DNA of 64,000 nt from an uncultured Siphonobacter sp. (lineage in GTDB: Bacteria > Bacteroidota > Bacteroidia > Cytophagales > Spirosomataceae): positions 1-64,000 of the forward strand of contig CAJYHS010000108.1 in the NCBI GenBank assembly GCA_913774715.1, given 5' to 3'. Below the pieces are notes generated by a model that was not told the origin of the DNA, made no database searches, and worked only from the letters and a program-made list of their open reading frames with translations. Below, piece by piece: positions 15,799-48,564 of this stretch (the first letter of the stretch is position 1; each line of letters opens with the position of its first letter). Made by a program: the position numbers and the translations under genes.

Positions 15799-18700
15799 AT
15801 GAACAAAGCACTACCCTTATGCCTTTGGGCGGGATTGACGATGCTTTCGGGATTGGGCCGTTCGCAGACCTTTGCCCGTGCCGAGACGCTGCGGCAGGAA
15901 ACCCGAACAAAACTACCCGCGTACCGAACCCTGCGGAAAGCTTTGCAGGATATTAAAACGAATTATAAGGTTGATATTCTTTTCGAAAATCGGGTGGTAG
16001 ATAACCTCTCCATTCCCACCGAACGGCTGAAAGGACACACGTCGGCGGAGCAGGCTCTTAAAGCTGTTCTGACGCCGCTGGGACTCAATTATCAGAAGAT
16101 GAAGGAGCGATCCTACATCATTGTTCAGGAGGATAAGAAGGTTCAGGCAGCATCTGCCAAAACCTCTTTTATGATGCCGTCGATCAGTGGTGTGACGCCT
16201 ATGCTGTCTTTACAACAAACCAGTCTTTCGGCGGATATTCCCGTGCGGGGAACCGTACGGGATGAAGCCACGGGCGAAGGCTTACCCGGCGTAAACGTCA
16301 TCGTGAAAGGAACCTCCAAAGGAGCTACTACCGACGCTACCGGATCTTTCCGACTGGATATTCCGGATGGAAATGCCGTGCTGATTTTTTCTTCGGTGGG
16401 GTATCAGTCGCAGGAATTAGCAGTGGGTTCACAAACGATCCTGAACATTACTCTTAAAAATAGCGATCAGGCTCTGGATGAAGTTGTTGTCGTAGGGTAC
16501 GGGGAACAGAAAAAGGAATCCATTACTGGTGCTATTTCTACTATTACCAGTAAAGATCTGGAGAAAGTACACGGCGGTTCAACCGTGAGTAGTGGACTGG
16601 CAGGTAAAATTCCGGGGGTAACTTTCCGGATGAATGACGGTCGTCCCGGTTCGAGTGCCAATATTCAGATCCGAAACATGGGTAACCCCTTGTACGTAAT
16701 TGATGGCATTCAGAAAGACGCGGGTCAATTCAATAACATTTCACCGAACGACATTGAAAGTATTACGGTATTGAAGGATGCGTCGGCGGCGATTTACGGA
16801 GTTCGGGCCGCGAACGGTGTTATCGTGGTAACAACGAAACGCGGGAAGATGGGCAGTTCGAACACGATTAATGTGGATGCGTACACAGGCTTTCAAAACT
16901 GGACCCGTTTCCCGAAAACGACAAATGCCTACCAGTGGATGTTAGGAAAAGCCGATGCGGAAATGAACCAGTACGGTCGAACGGACATTACCCAGGAAGA
17001 ACTGAACAAATGGCAGCAGGGTACAGAAACGGGTTATAAAAGCTTCGACTGGTTCAAGTACATCGTTCAGAAAAATGCTCCGCAGTATAATCTCAATATC
17101 AATGCAACGGGCGGTTCGGACAAAATCAACTATTACATCTCAGCAACGCACCTGTTTCAGAACTCGGTATTAGGTCGGGAGTTTACCTTCAAACGAACCA
17201 ATATTCAGAGTAACGTTGATGCCCAGATTACTAACTCACTGAAAGTCGGCGTGCAGATCAATGGCCGGATTGAAACGCGGGATAACCCCGGCGTTCCCGG
17301 AGGCGATGATTACTGGGCTCCCCGGTTTGCTCTGTTCCGTAACCGTCCTACCGAGCGTCCTTTTGCCAATGATAATCCGGAATACCTGAATGACATCGGT
17401 CATAATGATACCAACTGGGGCTTGTTAAATAAAAATAAATCAGGGTATTGGCGGGAAGACTGGCGGGTATTACAAACCAACTTCGTTGGCGAGTATCGCT
17501 CACCCATCAAGGGACTAACGGCGAAAGCTACGTATTCATATTACTTCGCGGATCGCCTGATGAATGGTCATGAGTACACATACGATGCCTTTACCTATTA
17601 TAAGGATACGGACAAATACGTTCGGACGGGCGGGAGTACAAACCCCTGGCGGGAGCGGGGCACGCGGAAAATCCTGGAAAATGTAACGCAGGGGCAGATT
17701 AACTACCAGAACAGCTTCGGCAAACACAATTTCGCCGCCACCTTTGTGGCCGAACGGATTGCCCGTCGCGAGCTTGATGTATGGGTACACTCAGTGCCTC
17801 AAACCAATGAGTTACCCCTGCTGCAATTTGCTGACATGGATACCTATAACGATAGCGATATTCAGACGGCCCGTGCGGGGTATATTGGTCGGGTTAACTA
17901 CAATTATCAGAATAAGATTTTCCTCGAAGTGGCCGGTCGGCGGGACGCTTCCTACAAATTTGCTCCTTCCAAACGCTGGGGATTTTTCCCCTCTATTTCG
18001 GGCGGCTGGCGAATTACGGAAGAACCTTTCTTCAAAAACCTGATGGGTGGCGACCGGGTATTAACCAATCTGAAACTCCGCGGTTCGTACGGGGCTCTCG
18101 GGGATGATGACGTAGGCATTGGTGACTTTGATTATGTGTCCGGATATAACTACGGTTCTTCAACGGTAATTATTGATGGTCAAGTGATTAAAGGCTCTCG
18201 TGACCGGGGCGTTCCCATCACTAACATTTCCTGGTTTACGTCAAAAATCCTTGACTTTGGTCTCGATTATACGCTTCTGAACGGAAAATTCAGTGGCTCG
18301 CTTGATTACTTCAACCGGAAACGTACGGGCTTACGCGGTCGGAAGTATGACGTACTTGTTCCTTCGGAATTAGGGTACGGCTTACCCGACGAAAATGTCA
18401 ACAGCGATGCTCAGATGGGGGGCGAAGGTTCGCTGTTTTATAATACAAAGATTAACGAAGTAAACTTTACGATTGGTGGTAACCTTTCCTACTCTCGTCG
18501 GAAATTCCTGCAATCGTATAAACCCCGCTGGAATAACTCCTGGGATTATTACCGCAACTCTAGTGAAAACCGCTTTAATGATCTGTACTGGGGGCATCAC
18601 GTGATTGGCCGGTTTGAGTCGCTCAGCCAGATTGCTGAATACGGCGTGAACATTGATGGTCAGGGTAATAAGACGCTATTACCTGGAGATTTGATTTATC

Positions 18701-19278: not shown

Positions 19279-19288
19279 TCTGCTGACT

Positions 19289-21166
19289 ATGAAAAAGATA
19301 CATTACGTAAGTTTTCTGGTACTGATGTGGGTAGGCTGGTCCTGCAACGATCAGAAGTTTCTTGACAAAGACCCTACGAATATTCTCACCAACGATAAAG
19401 TCTGGCAGAGTCCAAACCTGGTGTTAACCGTACTGGTGGATTTGTATGACCGGTATCCCGAAGTGCAGAGCACTGAAAAATGGGTGGAATACGCCAACTT
19501 CGACGAGGCCTTTGCTTCAAGTGCGGGGGAGTATTACCGTCACAAAAACCAGGAGTATAACTATGACTGGTGGAACTACTGGGATTATGGCTACCTGCGG
19601 GAGATGAACCTCTTCATCCAGAAATGTACGGAAGCCACTCAGCTTGATGAAGCCAGTAAAAAGCGGTTTCTGGCCGAGGCTCGTTACCTGCGAGCGTCGT
19701 TTTATTTCGAGGAAGTGAAACGAATGGGCGGTGTGCCTTTGATTCTGGAACCGTTGCAGTACGATTTCAGCGGCGATCCAACGTACCTGCAATACGCACG
19801 GGCCAAAGAATCAGAGATTTATGATTTCGTGATTGCTGAGATGGAAGCTATCAAAAATGACCTGCCGAGCGATCCGAATACCAAATCACGGGCGACGAAA
19901 GGACTGGCTTTAGCTACGGAAGCACGGGCGGCTTTGTACGCGGGTTCGATTGCCAAGTATGGTGTAAACACACCGCAGGTTACCCTGCCCGGTGGAGAAG
20001 TAGGCATTGAAGCAAGTAAAGCTACCGCTTATTTCCAGCAGTCGCTGAAGGCTTCGGAAGAGCTGATTGCTTTAGGACAATATGCGTTATACCTGAAGAA
20101 ACCGACGGATTTATCAGACAATTTCGCCAGCTTATTTACGGATAAATCGAATAATGCAGAAGCCATTTTTGTGAAGGATTTCAAGCTCAAAAGCGGAAAG
20201 ACGACCGACTGGACGATTATCAATCAACCTCGTTCAGTAGCGGAAGAGCAGCAGGGCGGTCGCCTGAATCCTTCGCTGAATCTGGTGCAATCCTTTGAAA
20301 AACTGGATAATACGTTTGCTACCTATGCGTACACCGATGCTAGCGGAGCGAATCGTTACTTCTCCAATCCACTCGAATTATTCGCGGGAAGGGATGCTCG
20401 TCTGGCTGGAACGGTGATTCTGCCGGGGAGTCAGTTTAAAGGAAAGACCGTCGACATCTGGGCGGGTTATCAGCTGGCTAATAATACGGTGGTTTCTGGA
20501 GATAACTTCGGTGCCCGGAAGGTATTACCCGGCAAGACAACGGAAGAGCAAGTCGTTGGTTTTGACGGCCCGATTGATGGACTGGAGTTCAGTGCCCAGA
20601 CGGGTTTTTACGTACGGAAATACCAGGATCCTACCGTGGGTTCGGGACAATTAGGCACGCGAAGCGAAGTATGGTGGATTCGGTATCGCTACGCTGAAGT
20701 ATTACTCAATGCTGCCGAAGCGGCTTTCGAACTGGGCCAGAACGCCAAAGCGGCGGGGTATATGAATCAGGTTCGGAAACGGGCTGGTTTTACGAAAGAC
20801 CTTGTAGCGGCTGATCTTACCTTTGATCGCATCGTGCACGAGCGGAAAGTAGAGTTAGCCTTTGAAAACCACATTCTCTTCGACATGAAACGCTGGCGGC
20901 TGGCCCACGTGGTCTGGAATGGGAATGCCACCGATCTGACCACCCAACCTGGTGTGGCAACGGAAACCAGCACCCGAATTTTCGGACTGTGGCCCTACAA
21001 AGTGTACGCTCCCGGAACGGATCAAAATGGCAAGTGGATTTTCAAGAAGATTATTCCTTCGAACGTAACTAATCCGCATCGCTTCCGACTGGGTAACTAT
21101 TACTCGCTTATTAATGAAGAAATACGCAGTAATAACCCAAAAATCGTTAAAAATCCGAATCAGTAA
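19289..21166 (+). CDS. SusD/RagB-type nutrient-binding lipoprotein
   Basis: A 625-residue surface lipoprotein that lids the SusC channel and binds the glycan. The lipobox WVGWSC puts the acylated Cys at residue 19. The family start is seen in FLDKDPTNILTNDKVWQSP, and the TPR-like helices in AEARYLRASFYFEEVKRMGGVPLI (split across residues 130-155). The C-terminal SusD/RagB domain includes RYRYAEVLLNAAEAAF, VRKRAG and ERKVELAFENHILFDMKRW. Length is toward the long side for SusD. It starts 10 bases after susC and 14 bases before the next gene, so the three form one operon. The start region reads ACTATGAAAAA. Confidence 0.97.
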   Translation: MKKIHYVSFLVLMWVGWSCNDQKFLDKDPTNILTNDKVWQSPNLVLTVLVDLYDRYPEVQSTEKWVEYANFDEAFASSAGEYYRHKNQEYNYDWWNYWDYGYLREMNLFIQKCTEATQLDEASKKRFLAEARYLRASFYFEEVKRMGGVPLILEPLQYDFSGDPTYLQYARAKESEIYDFVIAEMEAIKNDLPSDPNTKSRATKGLALATEARAALYAGSIAKYGVNTPQVTLPGGEVGIEASKATAYFQQSLKASEELIALGQYALYLKKPTDLSDNFASLFTDKSNNAEAIFVKDFKLKSGKTTDWTIINQPRSVAEEQQGGRLNPSLNLVQSFEKLDNTFATYAYTDASGANRYFSNPLELFAGRDARLAGTVILPGSQFKGKTVDIWAGYQLANNTVVSGDNFGARKVLPGKTTEEQVVGFDGPIDGLEFSAQTGFYVRKYQDPTVGSGQLGTRSEVWWIRYRYAEVLLNAAEAAFELGQNAKAAGYMNQVRKRAGFTKDLVAADLTFDRIVHERKVELAFENHILFDMKRWRLAHVVWNGNATDLTTQPGVATETSTRIFGLWPYKVYAPGTDQNGKWIFKKIIPSNVTNPHRFRLGNYYSLINEEIRSNNPKIVKNPNQ

Positions 21167-23141: not shown

Positions 23142-23293
23142 CGTTTGAGGAGGTTTGAAAATCGTTTGAATAAGGTTTAACTGGCGAATGGAACATGAAC
23201 CAGCTTTATCAAACAAAAGTCAAACTTCCTCCACTCAGATCTTTTCAAACTTTCTCCAACCATTTTCAAACCTCAAACTATTTTATCAGTACT

Positions 23294-25714
23294 ATGAAAA
23301 AACGTTTTCTTTTGCTGGCCGCTCTGGCTACGCATGGCTGGGTACAGGCTCAGGTAGGACGGGCACCTGCGTATCCGCTTATTACACATGATCCTTATTT
23401 CAGCGTTTGGTCTACCACGGATCAGTTAACATCTTCGCCAACGAAGCACTGGACGGGAACTGACCAGCCATTATTGGGTGTATTGACGGTTGACGGCGTG
23501 AATTACCGTTTTCTGGGACAGGAAGCGAAGGGGTACGATACCATTATTCCCACGGCTGATGAGGAAGGGTATTCCGTAAAATACAGCGAAAGTGAGCCTA
23601 AATCGGGATGGAATACGCTCAGTTTTTCAGATAACGACTGGAAGTCTGGAAAGGCACCGTTCAGCGATGATAAAAATCAGGCGGCCACGCACTGGGACAG
23701 TAAAAATCTCTGGACGCGGCGGACGTTTGATCTCAAGCAGGTGCCTTCGGAGCCGGTGTTCCTGAAACTGCAGCACGATGATAATGTCGAGGCCTATCTG
23801 AACGGCGAGCAGATTTATTCGCACAAGGGCTGGATTCATAAATTTGAATACATTCCTCTGAAATCGAAATTGAAAGCTGGCAAAAACGTACTGGCCATTC
23901 ACGTGGCTAATACGGCGGGCGGAGCTTTTCTGGATGCCGGATTAGTGAAAGAAAAAGTTTCGAAGGAGAAGGTAACCATGCAAACGGCTCAGCAGAAAAA
24001 CGTAGAGTTCACGGCCACACAAACCAAGTACACGTTTACCTGTGGTAAAGTGGATCTGGACGTAACCTTTGCTTCGCCTTTGTTACTCAACGACTTAGAT
24101 ATTTACGCTCGTCCGGTTACTTACGTGACGTATCGGGTAAAAGCGAACGATGGAGCTTCGCATCCGGTGAATTTTTACTTCGGAGCTTCAACGAATCTGG
24201 CTACGAATGTACCCACTCAGGCGGTAACGGCAACGGTAGCTTCCACGAATGAATACACTGCTCTGAAAACCGGAACGAAAGATCAGCCGATCCTGAAAAA
24301 ACGCGGCGATGACCTTCGCATTGACTGGGGTTACTTCTACGTAGCGGCTCCGAAGAATAATCAGGCCGTACAAAGCATTAGTGCGATGCCTTCACTGAAA
24401 GGCCAGAAATCGGCTATTAATGAAGGAAAATCATTATTCCTGAACACGATGGTAAATCTGGGTTCGGTAAATGCGACGCCAAAGGAGCAATACCTGATGG
24501 TGGCTTACGATGATATTGAGTCCATTCAATACTTTGGCCAGAACCTGAAACCCTGGTGGAAAGAAAAAGGCTCAACCATTGAAAAGGAAATTACCAAGGC
24601 AATTACTGAATACAAATCAGTGATCGAAAAGTGCGAGGCTTTTGATAAGCAGATGTTCGCCGATGCCAAAAAAGCGGGCGGTGAAGAATACGCCCGGCTG
24701 TGCGTACTGGCGTATCGTCAGTCGGCAGCGGCTCATAAACTGGTGAAAAGTCCGCAGGGTGAAACGCTGTATCTGTCTAAAGAAAACTTCAGTAATTGCT
24801 GTATCAATACCGTTGATTTAACTTATCCGTCGGCTCCGTTATACCTGTTGTATAACCCTGAGTTACTCAAAGGCATGATGAACGGAATTTTCTATTACAG
24901 CGAAAGTGGTAAGTGGAAAAAGCCTTTCGCCGCTCACGACCTGGGAACGTATCCGCTGGCGAACGATCAGGTGTATGGCGAGGATATGCCCGTGGAAGAA
25001 TCGGGTAACATGGTAATTCTGGCAGCGGCCATCGCTAAAACGGAAGGTAATCCCGAGTACGCTCGTAAGCACTGGAAAACGCTGACTACCTGGGCAGAAT
25101 ACCTGCTGAAAGAAGGGTTTGATCCAGCGAATCAGTTATGTACGGACGATTTTGCCGGTCACTTGGCTCGTAATGCTAATCTTTCTGCGAAAGCGATTGT
25201 TGGTCTGGGTTGTTATGCCATGCTGGCTGAGCAATTGGGTGAAAAAGCCACTGCCGAGAAGTTCCGTAAGAGTGCCGAAGAAATGGTGCAGAAATGGATG
25301 CAAATCGCGGATGATGGCGACCATTATGCTCTGACTTTCGATAAAAAAGGAACCTGGAGCCAGAAGTATAACCTGGTTTGGGATAAGGTATTAAACCTGA
25401 AACTATTTCCGAAATCAGTGTACGATAAGGAAATTAAGTATTACCTCACCAAGCAGAATTCATACGGATTACCACTCGATAGCCGCAAGACCTATACCAA
25501 ATCCGACTGGATCGTATGGACGGCTACGTTAGCGGATAATCAGAAAGATTTCGATGCCTTGATTAATCCTTTGATGAAGTATGCTCACGAAACGTCATCA
25601 CGCGTTCCCATCAGCGACTGGCACGAAACGACCAATGGCGATAAAATTGGTTTTCAGGCTCGTAGTGTAGTGGGAGGGTACTTTATGAAGTTACTCGAAG
25701 AGAAAATTAAATAA
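23294..25714 (+). CDS. Glutaminase-A-like secreted protein (DUF4964/DUF5127/DUF4965/DUF1793 architecture)
   Basis: I place the start at 23294, where a signal peptide begins (MKKRFLLLAALATHGWVQA), giving 806 residues; the upstream in-frame ATG at 23195 adds a non-hydrophobic leader. The early segment PLITHDPYFSVWSTTDQL is the DUF4964 hallmark. A beta-sandwich insert (about 110-215) resembles carbohydrate-binding domains. The C-terminal half is an (alpha/alpha) toroid with DLTYPSAPLYLLYNPELLKG and AHDLGTYPLANDQVYGED. The family is named after fungal glutaminase A but is common in Bacteroidetes polysaccharide loci, where a glycosidase role is plausible and unproven. It sits between two GH43 genes. 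Confidence 0.85.
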   Translation: MKKRFLLLAALATHGWVQAQVGRAPAYPLITHDPYFSVWSTTDQLTSSPTKHWTGTDQPLLGVLTVDGVNYRFLGQEAKGYDTIIPTADEEGYSVKYSESEPKSGWNTLSFSDNDWKSGKAPFSDDKNQAATHWDSKNLWTRRTFDLKQVPSEPVFLKLQHDDNVEAYLNGEQIYSHKGWIHKFEYIPLKSKLKAGKNVLAIHVANTAGGAFLDAGLVKEKVSKEKVTMQTAQQKNVEFTATQTKYTFTCGKVDLDVTFASPLLLNDLDIYARPVTYVTYRVKANDGASHPVNFYFGASTNLATNVPTQAVTATVASTNEYTALKTGTKDQPILKKRGDDLRIDWGYFYVAAPKNNQAVQSISAMPSLKGQKSAINEGKSLFLNTMVNLGSVNATPKEQYLMVAYDDIESIQYFGQNLKPWWKEKGSTIEKEITKAITEYKSVIEKCEAFDKQMFADAKKAGGEEYARLCVLAYRQSAAAHKLVKSPQGETLYLSKENFSNCCINTVDLTYPSAPLYLLYNPELLKGMMNGIFYYSESGKWKKPFAAHDLGTYPLANDQVYGEDMPVEESGNMVILAAAIAKTEGNPEYARKHWKTLTTWAEYLLKEGFDPANQLCTDDFAGHLARNANLSAKAIVGLGCYAMLAEQLGEKATAEKFRKSAEEMVQKWMQIADDGDHYALTFDKKGTWSQKYNLVWDKVLNLKLFPKSVYDKEIKYYLTKQNSYGLPLDSRKTYTKSDWIVWTATLADNQKDFDALINPLMKYAHETSSRVPISDWHETTNGDKIGFQARSVVGGYFMKLLEEKIK

Positions 25715-25997: not shown

Positions 25998-26047
25998 TAA
26001 GGGGAGCACATTATATTAGTATTGAAAATACTTACGCTCTAAATTCT

Positions 26048-27076
26048 ATGAAAAAACTAGTATTCTTCTGTTTGTTGGCATTGGGAAGCCAGGCCCAGAC
26101 GTTCACCAATCCCTTATTACCCTCGGGAGCTGACCCCTGGAGTGTCTACCATGAAGGAAATTATTACTACATGCACACGACCGGGAATTCCCTGCAGTTA
26201 CGCTCCACTAAATTCATTACCGACCTGAAGTCGGCCACTCCGAAAACGATCTGGAAGCCGCCCGTTTCAGGTCCTTATTCCAAAGATATCTGGGCACCGG
26301 AGATTCATTTTATTCAGGGAAAGTGGTACGTCTACTTCACGGGTAACGATGGGAAGAGTGGAGATAATCGACGCATTTACGTGCTCGAAAATAGTTCACC
26401 TAACCCGATGGAAGGAGATTGGGTAATGAAGGGTAAAATCAGCGATGAGAGCGACCAGTGGGCTATTGATGGGTCGGTATTTGAGTATCAGGGAAAACTA
26501 TACATGATCTGGTCGGGCTGGGATCATGTGAGCAAAACCGATGAAATGCAGAATATTTATATTGCCGCTCTCAAAAATCCCTGGACCGTAGAAAGCAAAC
26601 GGGTTTTGATTTCAACACCTGAGTTACCCTGGGAGCGTTACTGGGATAATACCACGGCGGGCAAACCCGGTCGTCCGGTGTATGTGAACGAAGGACCTCA
26701 GTTTCTGAAACATGGGAATAAGGTATTCGTCGTGTACTCAGCCAGTGGCTGCTGGACCAATACTTATGCATTGGGATTGTTGACCGCGAAAAATGGAGCT
26801 AATCTGCTGGATCCTAAAAGCTGGAAGAAGCGTAATCAACCCGTGTTCGAACAATCACAAGCCAACAAAGTATACGGTACGGGTCATAATTCGTTCTTCA
26901 AATCGCCCGATGGAAAAGAAGACTGGTTCTTATACCACGCCAATTCCGGCCCCGATGAAGGTTGCGGAGGCAAACGGGCACCTAGGGCCCAGAAAATCAA
27001 CTGGAATGCCGACGGAACACCTGATTTTGGCAAACCCACGGCGGATGGCCTAGCCATTAAAGAACCTTCGAGGTAG
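26048..27076 (+). CDS. Secreted GH43 family glycoside hydrolase (arabinofuranosidase-like)
   Basis: A 342-residue exported protein; the signal peptide is short (about 1-16, ending GSQAQ). It is a GH43 five-bladed propeller with base D29 in SGADPWS, D141 in AIDGSV and acid E215 in NEGPQF. DIWAPEIHFIQGKWYVYF is the family's second-blade motif. The sequence type (ADPWSVYHEGNYYYM) resembles alpha-L-arabinofuranosidases of GH43 more than the first GH43 of this locus, so the two enzymes likely cut different linkages. Transcribed rightward after its own upstream region. The start region reads CTATGAAAAAAC. Confidence 0.92.
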   Translation: MKKLVFFCLLALGSQAQTFTNPLLPSGADPWSVYHEGNYYYMHTTGNSLQLRSTKFITDLKSATPKTIWKPPVSGPYSKDIWAPEIHFIQGKWYVYFTGNDGKSGDNRRIYVLENSSPNPMEGDWVMKGKISDESDQWAIDGSVFEYQGKLYMIWSGWDHVSKTDEMQNIYIAALKNPWTVESKRVLISTPELPWERYWDNTTAGKPGRPVYVNEGPQFLKHGNKVFVVYSASGCWTNTYALGLLTAKNGANLLDPKSWKKRNQPVFEQSQANKVYGTGHNSFFKSPDGKEDWFLYHANSGPDEGCGGKRAPRAQKINWNADGTPDFGKPTADGLAIKEPSR

Positions 27077-45940: not shown

Positions 45941-47293
45941 TTAACGCCCGGTGGGCAATGGAATAACGGGCAAACTTTCATTACCGCCTTCAGTAACCGA
46001 CTGCACGGCAAAGAAGTAAGAATCACGCGAATAGGGGAGCGTAACTGAGGTATCCGTGACGAAAATTTTCTTTTGCCAGAAAGGTTGATAGGTTTCCCGC
46101 ATTAATACGTAATACCCCTTCACTTTTCCGCTTTTGGGAGCCTTCCAGCTTAGTTTGGCATAATTAGCAGAGCCTTTTACATCGATCTGAGCTTCCTGGG
46201 GTGTTTGAGGAGCTTTGGCGAGATTAGCCAACGTTGCCAGGTTAATTCCAGCATTTTTACGCAGATATTCAAAGTCCATGAACTTTATCAGGTCGCCGTA
46301 TTCTTTGCCTTTATCCGTGTGAATATCCTGATGCTGATGATCGAAGTTTTCGTTCATTTCTGTAATACGGACTGCTGCAAAACCGCGATTCACAAAGGGC
46401 GTATGGTCGCCACCCCGCTGAAAACGGTCATTTCGAAAAATCAGAACTACTTCCAGGTTTTCTACGTAACGTTCGCCTACTTCTTTCATGTAACGAGCTA
46501 GTTGACGGGTTTTTCCGTCGCTTTCTGCTCCAATGGCCCGAATTTTGGCTGCTTGTTCAGCCGTTTGATAGGCGGGTAATCCTTCGCTGAAAACGCGTAA
46601 GCGAGTGTTATCGATGATACCCGTTTCGCTTCCAGCCGAAGAACCCATCGTGTCATTATTCAGAATGGCTTCCAGATTGCATTTTTTGTCGACGGCTTGT
46701 TGAGAATAATATTCTGCCCCGTATAAACCCTGTTCTTCACCACTGACAATTAGAAAAATGATGGTTGCCGGGAATTTTGCCTGAGCCATTACTCGTGCTA
46801 ATTCTAAAGCCGTCGCTACGCCAGAGGCATCGTCATTGGCTCCGGGAGAGTCAATATCCCGGTTCATAATATCGAAAGCCCGGGAATCAATGTGGGCGGA
46901 GATGACAAATACGCGATCATCCGCAGGGTCGGTACCTTTCAAAGTTGCAACGACATTGGCAATTTCATGTTCTTTGTCAATCCGTCGACCGTCGGGTTTC
47001 AGCGTCCAGCTTTGTAGTTCAGCGGTGAGTCTTCCGCCTGAGTTTTTAGCGTAGGCCTTAAATTTGGAAAGCGTCCATTGACGAGCAGCTCCAATCCCTT
47101 TCTTAGAATCAGTTACTGAACTCATAGTATGCCGCGAGCCAAACGAAACCAGCTTTTCGACGCTGGCTTTCATGGAATCGGCCGAAATAGCTTTGACATA
47201 ACGCTCAATTTCCGGATCGCGGTTAACTATTTCCTGGGCATGGCTAACCAAGGGGAGAAAAAAAGCTCCTAGAAGCAGGTAACGTTTCAACAT
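45941..47293 (-). CDS. Secreted M28 family zinc peptidase with C-terminal FnIII-like domain
   Basis: A 450-residue exported peptidase (signal peptide about 1-19, ending VSHAQ). It is an M28 aminopeptidase fold (about 70-350). The two-zinc ligands are His in SAHIDSR, Asp in GANDDASG, Glu-Glu in VSGEEQGLYGAEYY, Asp in NNDTMG, and a late His in DHQHQDIHT. The C-terminal 95 residues (SANYAKLSWKAPKSGKVKGY) resemble a fibronectin type III domain and end near the signal-free C-terminus. It digests peptides in the periplasm or outside. It lies downstream of the candidate RNA region; its leader may include that RNA. Confidence 0.93.
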   Translation of the reverse strand: MLKRYLLLGAFFLPLVSHAQEIVNRDPEIERYVKAISADSMKASVEKLVSFGSRHTMSSVTDSKKGIGAARQWTLSKFKAYAKNSGGRLTAELQSWTLKPDGRRIDKEHEIANVVATLKGTDPADDRVFVISAHIDSRAFDIMNRDIDSPGANDDASGVATALELARVMAQAKFPATIIFLIVSGEEQGLYGAEYYSQQAVDKKCNLEAILNNDTMGSSAGSETGIIDNTRLRVFSEGLPAYQTAEQAAKIRAIGAESDGKTRQLARYMKEVGERYVENLEVVLIFRNDRFQRGGDHTPFVNRGFAAVRITEMNENFDHQHQDIHTDKGKEYGDLIKFMDFEYLRKNAGINLATLANLAKAPQTPQEAQIDVKGSANYAKLSWKAPKSGKVKGYYVLMRETYQPFWQKKIFVTDTSVTLPYSRDSYFFAVQSVTEGGNESLPVIPLPTGR

Positions 47294-47435
47294 ACAGTTT
47301 TTAAAAGTATTGGTCAGTGATAAGGCAAAGTAATACTTCTGAAACGATTCTGACCGGAGAGTAGATAGGTTGGGGAAATTAGGATGGAAAATCCTGAAGA
47401 AAGGCTACGAATAATAGAATAGCTATAAAACAAAA

Positions 47436-47464
47436 TAAGGCCGAGCGAAACGCTCAACCTTATC
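47436..47464 (-). terminator. Leftward terminator of the candidate RNA
   Basis: ATAAGG-xx-GAGCG pairs with CGCTC-xx-CCTTAT around AAA; on the minus strand it runs into TTTTGTTTTATAG. Plus-strand side lacks a T run. Confidence 0.75.
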
Positions 47465-47593
47465 CCACTTAACCTCTAAACCTATTTTACTATGAAAAAA
47501 CGCTAACCTCTTGTGAAAAAATGACACCGTCTCGTTCACTATCCATTTCCTGGTGTCTTTTTGGGAACTTCGTCTTTCGTGAGATAGTTCCTA

Positions 47594-47626
47594 AAAATGT
47601 ATTCCAAAGAGAACAAACACTTCAAA
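47594..47626 (-). promoter_or_regulatory. Internal candidate promoter of the RNA
   Basis: Minus strand TTTG-N21-TACATTTT: correct spacing, one mismatch in the -7 box. It would yield a shorter transcript of about 160 bases starting at the first hairpin. Confidence 0.35.
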
Positions 47627-47797
47627 TTAGACTTTCTGCAATTTCGCTAAAGCTTTCGAATATCAATGAAATATAGAAAACTTATTTTACTGCGAATTCA
47701 AATAATAAAGATCTCTTTGAAATATCTACCGCAAAGTTACAAATCATTTTTGATACTTCCTGGTATTTTACAATTTACTTGTCCTCGTTTGACATTA

Positions 47798-47829
47798 CAA
47801 ATGTAGATACACTAATTTAAAAGTCCAAA
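47798..47829 (-). promoter_or_regulatory. Consensus promoter on the minus strand
   Basis: The minus strand reads TTTG, 20 bases, then TACATTTG: a full match to the Bacteroidetes consensus. No gene start lies within 500 bases downstream, only the candidate RNA and then the M28 gene. The remaining 47830-48003 is AT-rich and shows nothing else. Confidence 0.6.
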
Positions 47830-48003
47830 CTTGGAAAATTACAATTTCAAAATTTTATTCGGAATAATATCCTATTTTAAGGCTTGGATTACGAAAAATT
47901 TGATGTAAAATTGCTTTTAACTAAAATATTATATGGATAAATATGAGATAAAGTTCCTGAAAATATTACTTTCCTAAAATGAAAAGTTCTTTAATAAGTA
48001 CAA

Positions 48004-48564
48004 TCATTCGTTAAAATTATTCATCGTCTTGTCAATCCCTAAAGTGCAAAAAGACAAAAGGATGTCAATGCATTTATCCAGGCGTTCCGGAATTAACTCA
48101 ATTTCAGCCTTCGGGAACTCTCCTAAAACATAGTCCGCCTGGCGTCCTTTGGGAAAATCTCCTCCTACGCCGAACCGCAAACGAGCGTACTGATCGGAGC
48201 CAAAAATTTCCTGAATATTTCGTAAACCATTATGCCCGCCGTGCGATCCTTTGGAGCGAACCCGAAGTTTGCCAAAAGGAAGTGCGATGTCATCCGTAAT
48301 AGTTAAGGTGTTTTCCACTGGAATTTTCAATTCCTTCATCCAATAGTTAAGAGCCTTACCACTCAGGTTCATGTAGGTGGTTGGCTTGATCAGATATATA
48401 GTACGACCTTTGTATTTGAGTTCGGCCCCGTAAGCCAGCCGTCCAATATCAAATTTTAATCCTTCCTGAGCCGCCAGCCGGTCCAAAACCATAAAGCCGA
48501 TGTTATGACGGGTCAGGGCATATTCCGGACCAATATTTCCCAGGCCCGCGATGAGATACTTCAT
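48004..48564 (-). CDS. pth: Peptidyl-tRNA hydrolase
   Basis: A 186-residue Pth that frees tRNA from prematurely released peptidyl-tRNA in the cytosol. The conserved start [20 protein letters not shown] contains the catalytic His20. [10 protein letters not shown] and the region around Asp ([20 protein letters not shown], then GGHNGLRNI) are fully conserved. The length is standard. It is divergent from pyrR; the 142-base gap between their start codons holds an 8-base inverted repeat nearer to pyrR. Confidence 0.98.

Follow-up and report, generated by a model that had tools for sequence, protein, structure and literature searches.

A FopS-like small RNA gene beside pth in Siphonobacter with SusC-type receptors as its main predicted targets

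We found that the minus strand of positions 47428–47506 in the window, by which we mean the whole 64,000-nucleotide stretch of Siphonobacter DNA analysed here, is by comparative evidence a real and conserved small RNA (sRNA) gene, with its transcription presumed. The 79-nt unit is FopS-like: it consists of a single-stranded 5' seed, the exact 5' end of which is estimated, and a 3' terminator hairpin. Very probably it specifies a FopS-like trans-acting sRNA that represses SusC and glycan genes, with transcription, processing and repression all deduced from sequence. The seed would cover the initiation region of the target mRNA and block ribosomes, as the FopS precedent suggests, while the 3' hairpin would end transcription of the sRNA. 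An earlier note on this DNA had proposed a trans-acting RNA, encoded at 47428–47829, that covers the starts of exported glycan genes. As judged from sequence, this mechanism is broadly right, with a number of its details wrong: comparative evidence speaks well for it, but the conserved unit comprises only the last ~79 nt, and the hairpins placed upstream of it are not supported.

The 79-nt unit folds at −24.3 kcal/mol (z −4.6), with a weak helix also predicted inside the seed. Its terminator stem-loop lies at 47437–47461 (minus strand) and is followed by a T-rich tract that runs to about 47425, which confirms the leftward terminator-like hairpin described earlier; a simple terminator scan did not have the hairpin at 47437–47461 among its listed terminators. 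As had also been stated, there is no convincing coding frame on the minus strand at 47428–47829. When run on the window, the covariance model R1 scored the sRNA locus at 78.8 bits (E 4.6e-12), a locus that belongs to the model's own training set. Rfam matches at the locus other than FopS fell below their own cut-offs and were taken as chance.

The stem of the terminator shows covariation throughout the family. In a MAFFT alignment of 19 units from seven genomes, CATAGT, TAGGTTTA and the four Ts preceding CATAGT are constant, and the sequence of the terminator hairpin is freely variable yet still paired. Scored on a structure that we named from single folds, the 18 distinct rows of this alignment have 94.4% of their cells paired versus 59.4% after shuffling, and ten of the eleven pairs have changed on both sides. 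The same picture is obtained from 115 model-aligned units (101 distinct), an alignment biased in favour of the structure, to which it was fitted: 93.4% of the cells are paired (54.8% shuffled), double changes number 412 (110 shuffled), and all eleven stem pairs have changed on both sides. One may object that the conserved word is instead a plus-strand translation or leader motif, be it a relict SusC leader or a mobile copy of one, and that the minus-strand RNA is merely the terminator of pth or of a lost gene. Indeed, the plus strand resembles a SusC leader and continues with ATGAAAAAACGC-TAA, but the frame after the plus-strand ATG stops after four codons. Moreover, the G-U pairs and the T-tract of the window unit fit the minus strand only, and the stems of the family covary. 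Tandem units with differing hairpins keep one and the same seed, and unlinked copies have terminators of their own. Additionally, 22 of 113 units have a promoter box, TAnnTTTG, whose start is exactly 10 nt ahead of model position 1, with 0.5 expected. We regard the plus-strand explanation as highly improbable on these grounds and hold to a minus-strand sRNA gene.

The seed core AGGTTTAGAGGTTAA (complement TTAACCTCTAAACCT) lies at 47469–47483 on the minus strand, and its 15 bases are common to all three copies in the window's own genome; relatives carry the seed at the corresponding place. The main seed is AGGTTTAGAGGT, adjoining the ATG complement on which the earlier note had laid the stress. 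At each of these first 12 seed positions, 110 or more of the 115 aligned units agree, with positions 13 and 15 variable; the constancy is partly selected, because most of the aligned loci were picked by an exact seed pattern, a choice that touched the seed and not the stem. The start-codon complement CGTTTTTTCATAGTA occupies 47488–47502 (minus strand), where the plus strand equals 23290–23304, and these two places are the only two occurrences of the 15-base word TACTATGAAAAAACG in the window. The proposed antisense match to the start of a glutaminase-like gene is real, with its target at 23290–23304 as given, but it sits at 47488–47502 and not at 47489–47503. The shorter matches of 12 bases at 26046–26057 and 11 bases at 19286–19296 are equally real. 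The seed is also complementary to ATGAAAAA; a combined pattern of leader plus ATGAAAAA with up to three mismatches returned the sRNA gene itself as its only match.

Members of the family recognised by R1 are present in 40 of 121 sampled genomes of the bacterial family and in 13 of its 36 genera, with 1–8 matches per positive genome. The own genome contains three copies, at 47428–47506 of the window, C204:24344–24422 and C167:3509–3581; the latter two are without the CATAGT part and have AGGTTTAGAGGTTAA in common with the window copy. Both unlinked paralogs (L084 360–470; L126 835–910) carry a common upstream motif, CGTATAAA...GTTCATAGAA, which is at least partly kept in the G003 orthologs (L127, L128) and would suggest a shared activator.

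Scanning named genomes with an exact pattern furnished 67 stretches, some of which share one genome. The carriers are Siphonobacter, Flectobacillus, Arcicella, Pseudarcicella, Aquirufa, Sandaracinomonas, Spirosoma-labelled and other metagenome bins; all but one Cellulophaga-labelled stretch are labelled Cytophagales, a placement that for some genera we take as given. In 51 of the 67 stretches pth lies on the same strand, 453–804 nt upstream of the sRNA, and these pth-linked loci contain arrays of 2–6 units (45) or one unit (6). The remaining 16 have pth elsewhere (1), provide less than 800 nt before the first unit (9), or are longer and yet contain no pth (6). More distant seeds are present in other genera. 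We also saw tandem FopS-like units with different seeds (GGTTAAGGTTTATT, GGGTTAAGGTTAGG) at L139 1572–1958 and in L304, both from other genera and one from outside the family. In a class-wide search at E 1e-4, a second model, R2, matched 9 of 395 genomes, among them the own genome; by eye, two of the eight R2 matches outside the family (L303; L304/L311) have the full layout, and the others may be terminators. Spread on phages or plasmids was considered and set aside, with one phage match at chance level and no plasmid matches. No paper on an sRNA of this kind in Cytophagales was found among the literature matches listed, in a search that covered few subscription papers.

SusC-type receptors are the main predicted targets. 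In the own genome, the complement of the 15-base seed core with at most one mismatch occurs at eight sites, namely the three sRNA genes and five others; about 0.5 matches are expected by chance (our own arithmetic, assuming equal base use). Four of these five sites lie on the sense strand 15, 25, 155 and 251 nt before receptors with Plug and CarbopepD_reg domains, and the fifth lies 15 nt before the start of a GH95-like enzyme, each distance being counted to the ATG from the site's first base. For comparison, about 0.13% of the two strands consists of regions up to 260 nt upstream of the 56 susC genes, again by our own arithmetic. The receptor on C193 is absent from the 56 TIGR04056 matches of the genome.

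Three relatives (G001, G003 and G005) together yielded 11 further non-sRNA sites, two of them orthologous to own-genome sites and not independent. Six stand before such receptors and one before a SASA esterase; the other four belong to an apparently exported protein that has no Pfam match, a metallophosphoesterase, a MacB/FtsX permease and a place without a clear gene. The reversed-pattern control gave three sites in the same three genomes together. G006 has three sites (two sRNA units and one without a gene) versus four in the control, and no target was found there. The sRNA model matches 8 of the 20 near-exact sites in G001, G003, G005 and G006, and it matches neither the other 12 nor any of the five non-sRNA sites of the own genome, which bears out the division into sRNA genes and other sites. 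When up to two mismatches are allowed in the 15-base site, the own genome gives 23 sites versus 20 in the reversed control, which is no clear excess.

The sites near a start codon are 15, 15, 15, 25, 25 and 37 nt from the ATG. In three of the four Siphonobacter genomes searched, however, some sites sit 148–251 nt upstream of the receptor start; a direct blocking of the start codon is less obvious there. One could imagine that the sRNA, though real, serves to activate or protect the leaders it targets, for example by opening leader structure or by blocking a nuclease, chiefly at the 150–250-nt sites that adjoin mini-ORFs. The far upstream sites would suit such a mode, as would the mini-ORFs in three such leaders (L281, L291, L295), the second of which has a hairpin as well. 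We nevertheless consider activation quite unlikely: the other sites lie 15–37 nt from the ATG, the seed complements ATGAAAAA too, and the FopS precedent is repression (PMC11697453). Repression of the targets is thus the reading that we retain. The mini-ORFs, for example ATGAAGTAA in L291, belong to leaders of STN-type SusC genes, and the hairpin GGTGAATGATG...CATCATTCACC of L291 is common to L166 (G006), which gives the impression of an attenuator-like leader.

Within the window, the glutaminase A-like gene (start 23294) makes a good candidate for a target, as the earlier note had proposed, with a predicted pairing that persists in relatives. Its leader and start (predicted site 23266–23304, plus strand) pair with the seed at −36.6 kcal/mol, a value that none of 300 dinucleotide shuffles reached, and the match, better than had been described, extends upstream as AACCTC-AAAC-TATTTTA...ACTATGAAAAAACG. 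A 60-nt sliding scan of the window ranked this leader as the top non-self partner at −33.0, the next being close at −32.4. With the five other ATGAAAAAA words on the window's plus strand, −18.9 to −26.9 was obtained, so that the start codon alone is not a sufficient explanation of the pairing. In five relatives the orthologous leaders, although diverged, pair at −29.9 to −37.3, with 0, 0, 0, 0 and 2 of 300 plain shuffles as low; the leader with two belongs to S. aquaeclarae, the own genome and the other four relatives have none, and the leaders of G001 and G004 are identical. The second GH43 gene, also suggested earlier, takes an intermediate position as a weaker predicted target (leader and start at 26023–26057, plus strand; −26.8 kcal/mol, 2 of 300 shuffles). 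SusD, the third gene named at the time, was dropped with 26 of 300 shuffles as low, and the window's own susC at 15799 was rejected as a strong target with 19 of 300.

Tested as a set, the SusC leaders pair more strongly with the seed than with shuffled versions of it (z −6.4, 0 of 60), and they outdo the other genes of the window (p 0.004). The other window genes likewise beat shuffled seeds (z −3.8), and part of the pairing is for this reason generic start-codon composition. We then compared seeds and SusC leaders across five genomes with 50 shuffles each, using 49 usable leaders of 51 fetched and 56 found in the own genome (G000), 20 of 47 in G001, 20 of 47 in G006, 15 of 15 in G017 and 21 of 21 in G040. 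The g36 seed pairs best with its own leaders (z −6.4 versus −2.8 to −3.8 elsewhere). The g1 seed reaches −6.1 and −5.3 with its own leaders, and the G017 leaders are equally good at −6.2. The g13 seed prefers the G040 leaders (−5.5) to its own (−4.3). For the g2 seed, its own leaders at −2.4 are the weakest of its five; the G006 seed has its poorest pairing with own-genome leaders (z −2.4). From this mixed cross-genome result, a co-evolution of seed and SusC leaders is suggestive at most.

The locus also tells where the sRNA may have come from. The claimed consensus promoter TTTG-N20-TACATTTG is indeed present on the minus strand, reading from 47829 to 47798; this sigma-ABfr-type promoter, P1, has the same spacing in S. 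aquaeclarae, where it stands before a small exported-protein ORF that stops about 10 nt before the sRNA unit. In the window, P1 is followed at 47731–47797 (minus strand) by what appears to be the transcript leader left over from a small exported-protein gene that was lost, with AGG in place of the ATG; in L007 the homologous ORF is intact. This AGG and the preserved leader are shared by the window genome and three relatives. Six of the 67 named stretches, S. aquaeclarae among them, have homologs of the ORF in the interval from pth to the first unit. The small exported proteins form a family of about 155–160 aa (L007 1587–2057, minus; L245 4640–5119, minus) that matches no Pfam family above its cut-off. 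In several genera its genes occupy the space from pth to the sRNA. Most simply explained, the protein disappeared while promoter, leader and sRNA stayed. Probably, then, the Siphonobacter sRNA is the 3' end of a ~365-nt transcript from P1, formerly the mRNA of the small exported protein, whose coding part decayed in the lineage of the window. The window unit is without a TAnnTTTG box at the fixed place and would rely on P1, about 290 nt upstream. Further upstream is pth, for peptidyl-tRNA hydrolase (48004–48564, minus strand; PF01195), the conserved upstream neighbour of the locus, and downstream of the terminator is an M28 peptidase gene (45941–47293, minus strand; PF04389).

Between leader and sRNA, a noncoding remnant at 47507–47730 (minus strand) holds hairpins at 47564–47591 and 47523–47557. 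The earlier note had described hairpins GGAAC/GTTCC and GACACC/GGTGTC with the shared loop words ACTATC/GATAGT, and the whole ~365-nt structured transcript might be functional with two upstream hairpins as working parts. P1 and the leader (47731–47860) are 93% identical to G001 while the middle region has diverged, and a 373-nt stretch folds better than its shuffles (z −2.4), as one would expect of such a transcript. The hairpins or equivalents do fold in the window and in four relatives, but the proposed covariation search found nothing beyond shuffles (in five close sequences only). Furthermore, a protein gene replaces the middle in S. aquaeclarae and others, and units elsewhere have only a ~77-nt part in common. 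The loop words are not kept as a pair in any of the four relatives, and kissing loops between the two hairpins were discarded with them. A function of the whole transcript thus seems unlikely to us, and we continue to see the terminal unit as the working sRNA.

How does this sRNA compare with known systems? The Rfam FopS model (RF04319) matches 47503–47429 over its full length, 1–71, with 29.1 bits, below the gathering cut-off of 56 bits; by this measure the window sRNA is a below-threshold relative of FopS and not a member by Rfam's criterion. None of 61 family genomes has a FopS-model match over the cut-off. Four matches were obtained in these genomes, two of which are units of the present sRNA family (G051:C409, 34.4 bits; G040:C2, 33.5 bits) and two of which have no R1 match. 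Ruttiger et al. 2025 (PMC11697453) describe FopS (RF04319) as a family of multicopy sRNAs in Bacteroides thetaiotaomicron. Each has a single-stranded 5' seed, made of a U-tract and CAU(A/G)G complementary to start regions, and then a Rho-independent terminator. SusC and PUL glycoside hydrolase genes are its targets or predicted targets, FopS-10 blocks translation of SusC mRNA, and one member is derived from a 3' UTR (PMC11697453). The RRM-1 protein RbpB binds and antagonises FopS and relieves the FopS-10 block (PMC11697453).

The likeness lies in the several copies (three paralogs in the own genome), in the 5' seed followed by a terminator hairpin, and in the start regions of SusC and glycan-enzyme genes as predicted targets. 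The complementarity of the seed to susC and PUL glycoside hydrolase start regions was found computationally and was not seen in G006. As for the TAnnTTTG-type promoter that directly precedes FopS, 22 of 113 units have such a box at the fixed place and the window unit has none. The two differ in the seed core, AGGUUUAGAGGUUAA here versus AGAUUUAAGGUUAAU in the Rfam FopS consensus, and in setting: we see one conserved pth-adjoining locus with tandem arrays in Cytophagales, whereas FopS belongs to Bacteroidaceae. In addition, no RRM_1 protein was matched in the own genome (G000) at E 0.001, with a Bacteroides ihuae control matching. The FopS partner RbpB therefore appears to be missing, and another chaperone or none must serve the sRNA.

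FopS has been described as belonging to Bacteroidaceae and as linked with the RNA-binding protein RbpB. A kindred Cytophagales family in a genome without an RRM match would show sRNA control of SusC transporters to be older and wider. Such a genome would also be a natural test of the need for the RbpB chaperone. The pth-linked arrays with genus-specific seeds offer a system in which to study how a single sRNA family and its many targets evolve together. The decayed host gene, for its part, would illustrate cleanly how a 3'-UTR sRNA can survive the loss of its mRNA. One may speculate, tentatively and with some doubt on our side, that SusC-silencing sRNAs are an old Bacteroidota-wide control that predates RbpB and is independent of it; that in Cytophagales they occupy a constant pth-linked place as amplifying tandem arrays with seeds drifting along with the SusC leaders of the genome; and that the Siphonobacter sRNA outlived the gene whose 3' UTR bore it.

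Two further Bacteroides systems deserve comparison. GibS of B. thetaiotaomicron (PMC7366714) also uses a single-stranded 5' seed to pair with start regions of metabolic mRNAs; unlike the present unit, it has 145 nt, two seeds and other targets. The DonS-type cis-antisense RNAs are noncoding too and lower susC expression in Bacteroides (PMC7366714, PMC11697453). They are encoded divergent to one PUL, whereas the window RNA, with pth and the M28 peptidase gene as its neighbours and no antisense or divergent susC, is trans-encoded and has several predicted targets.
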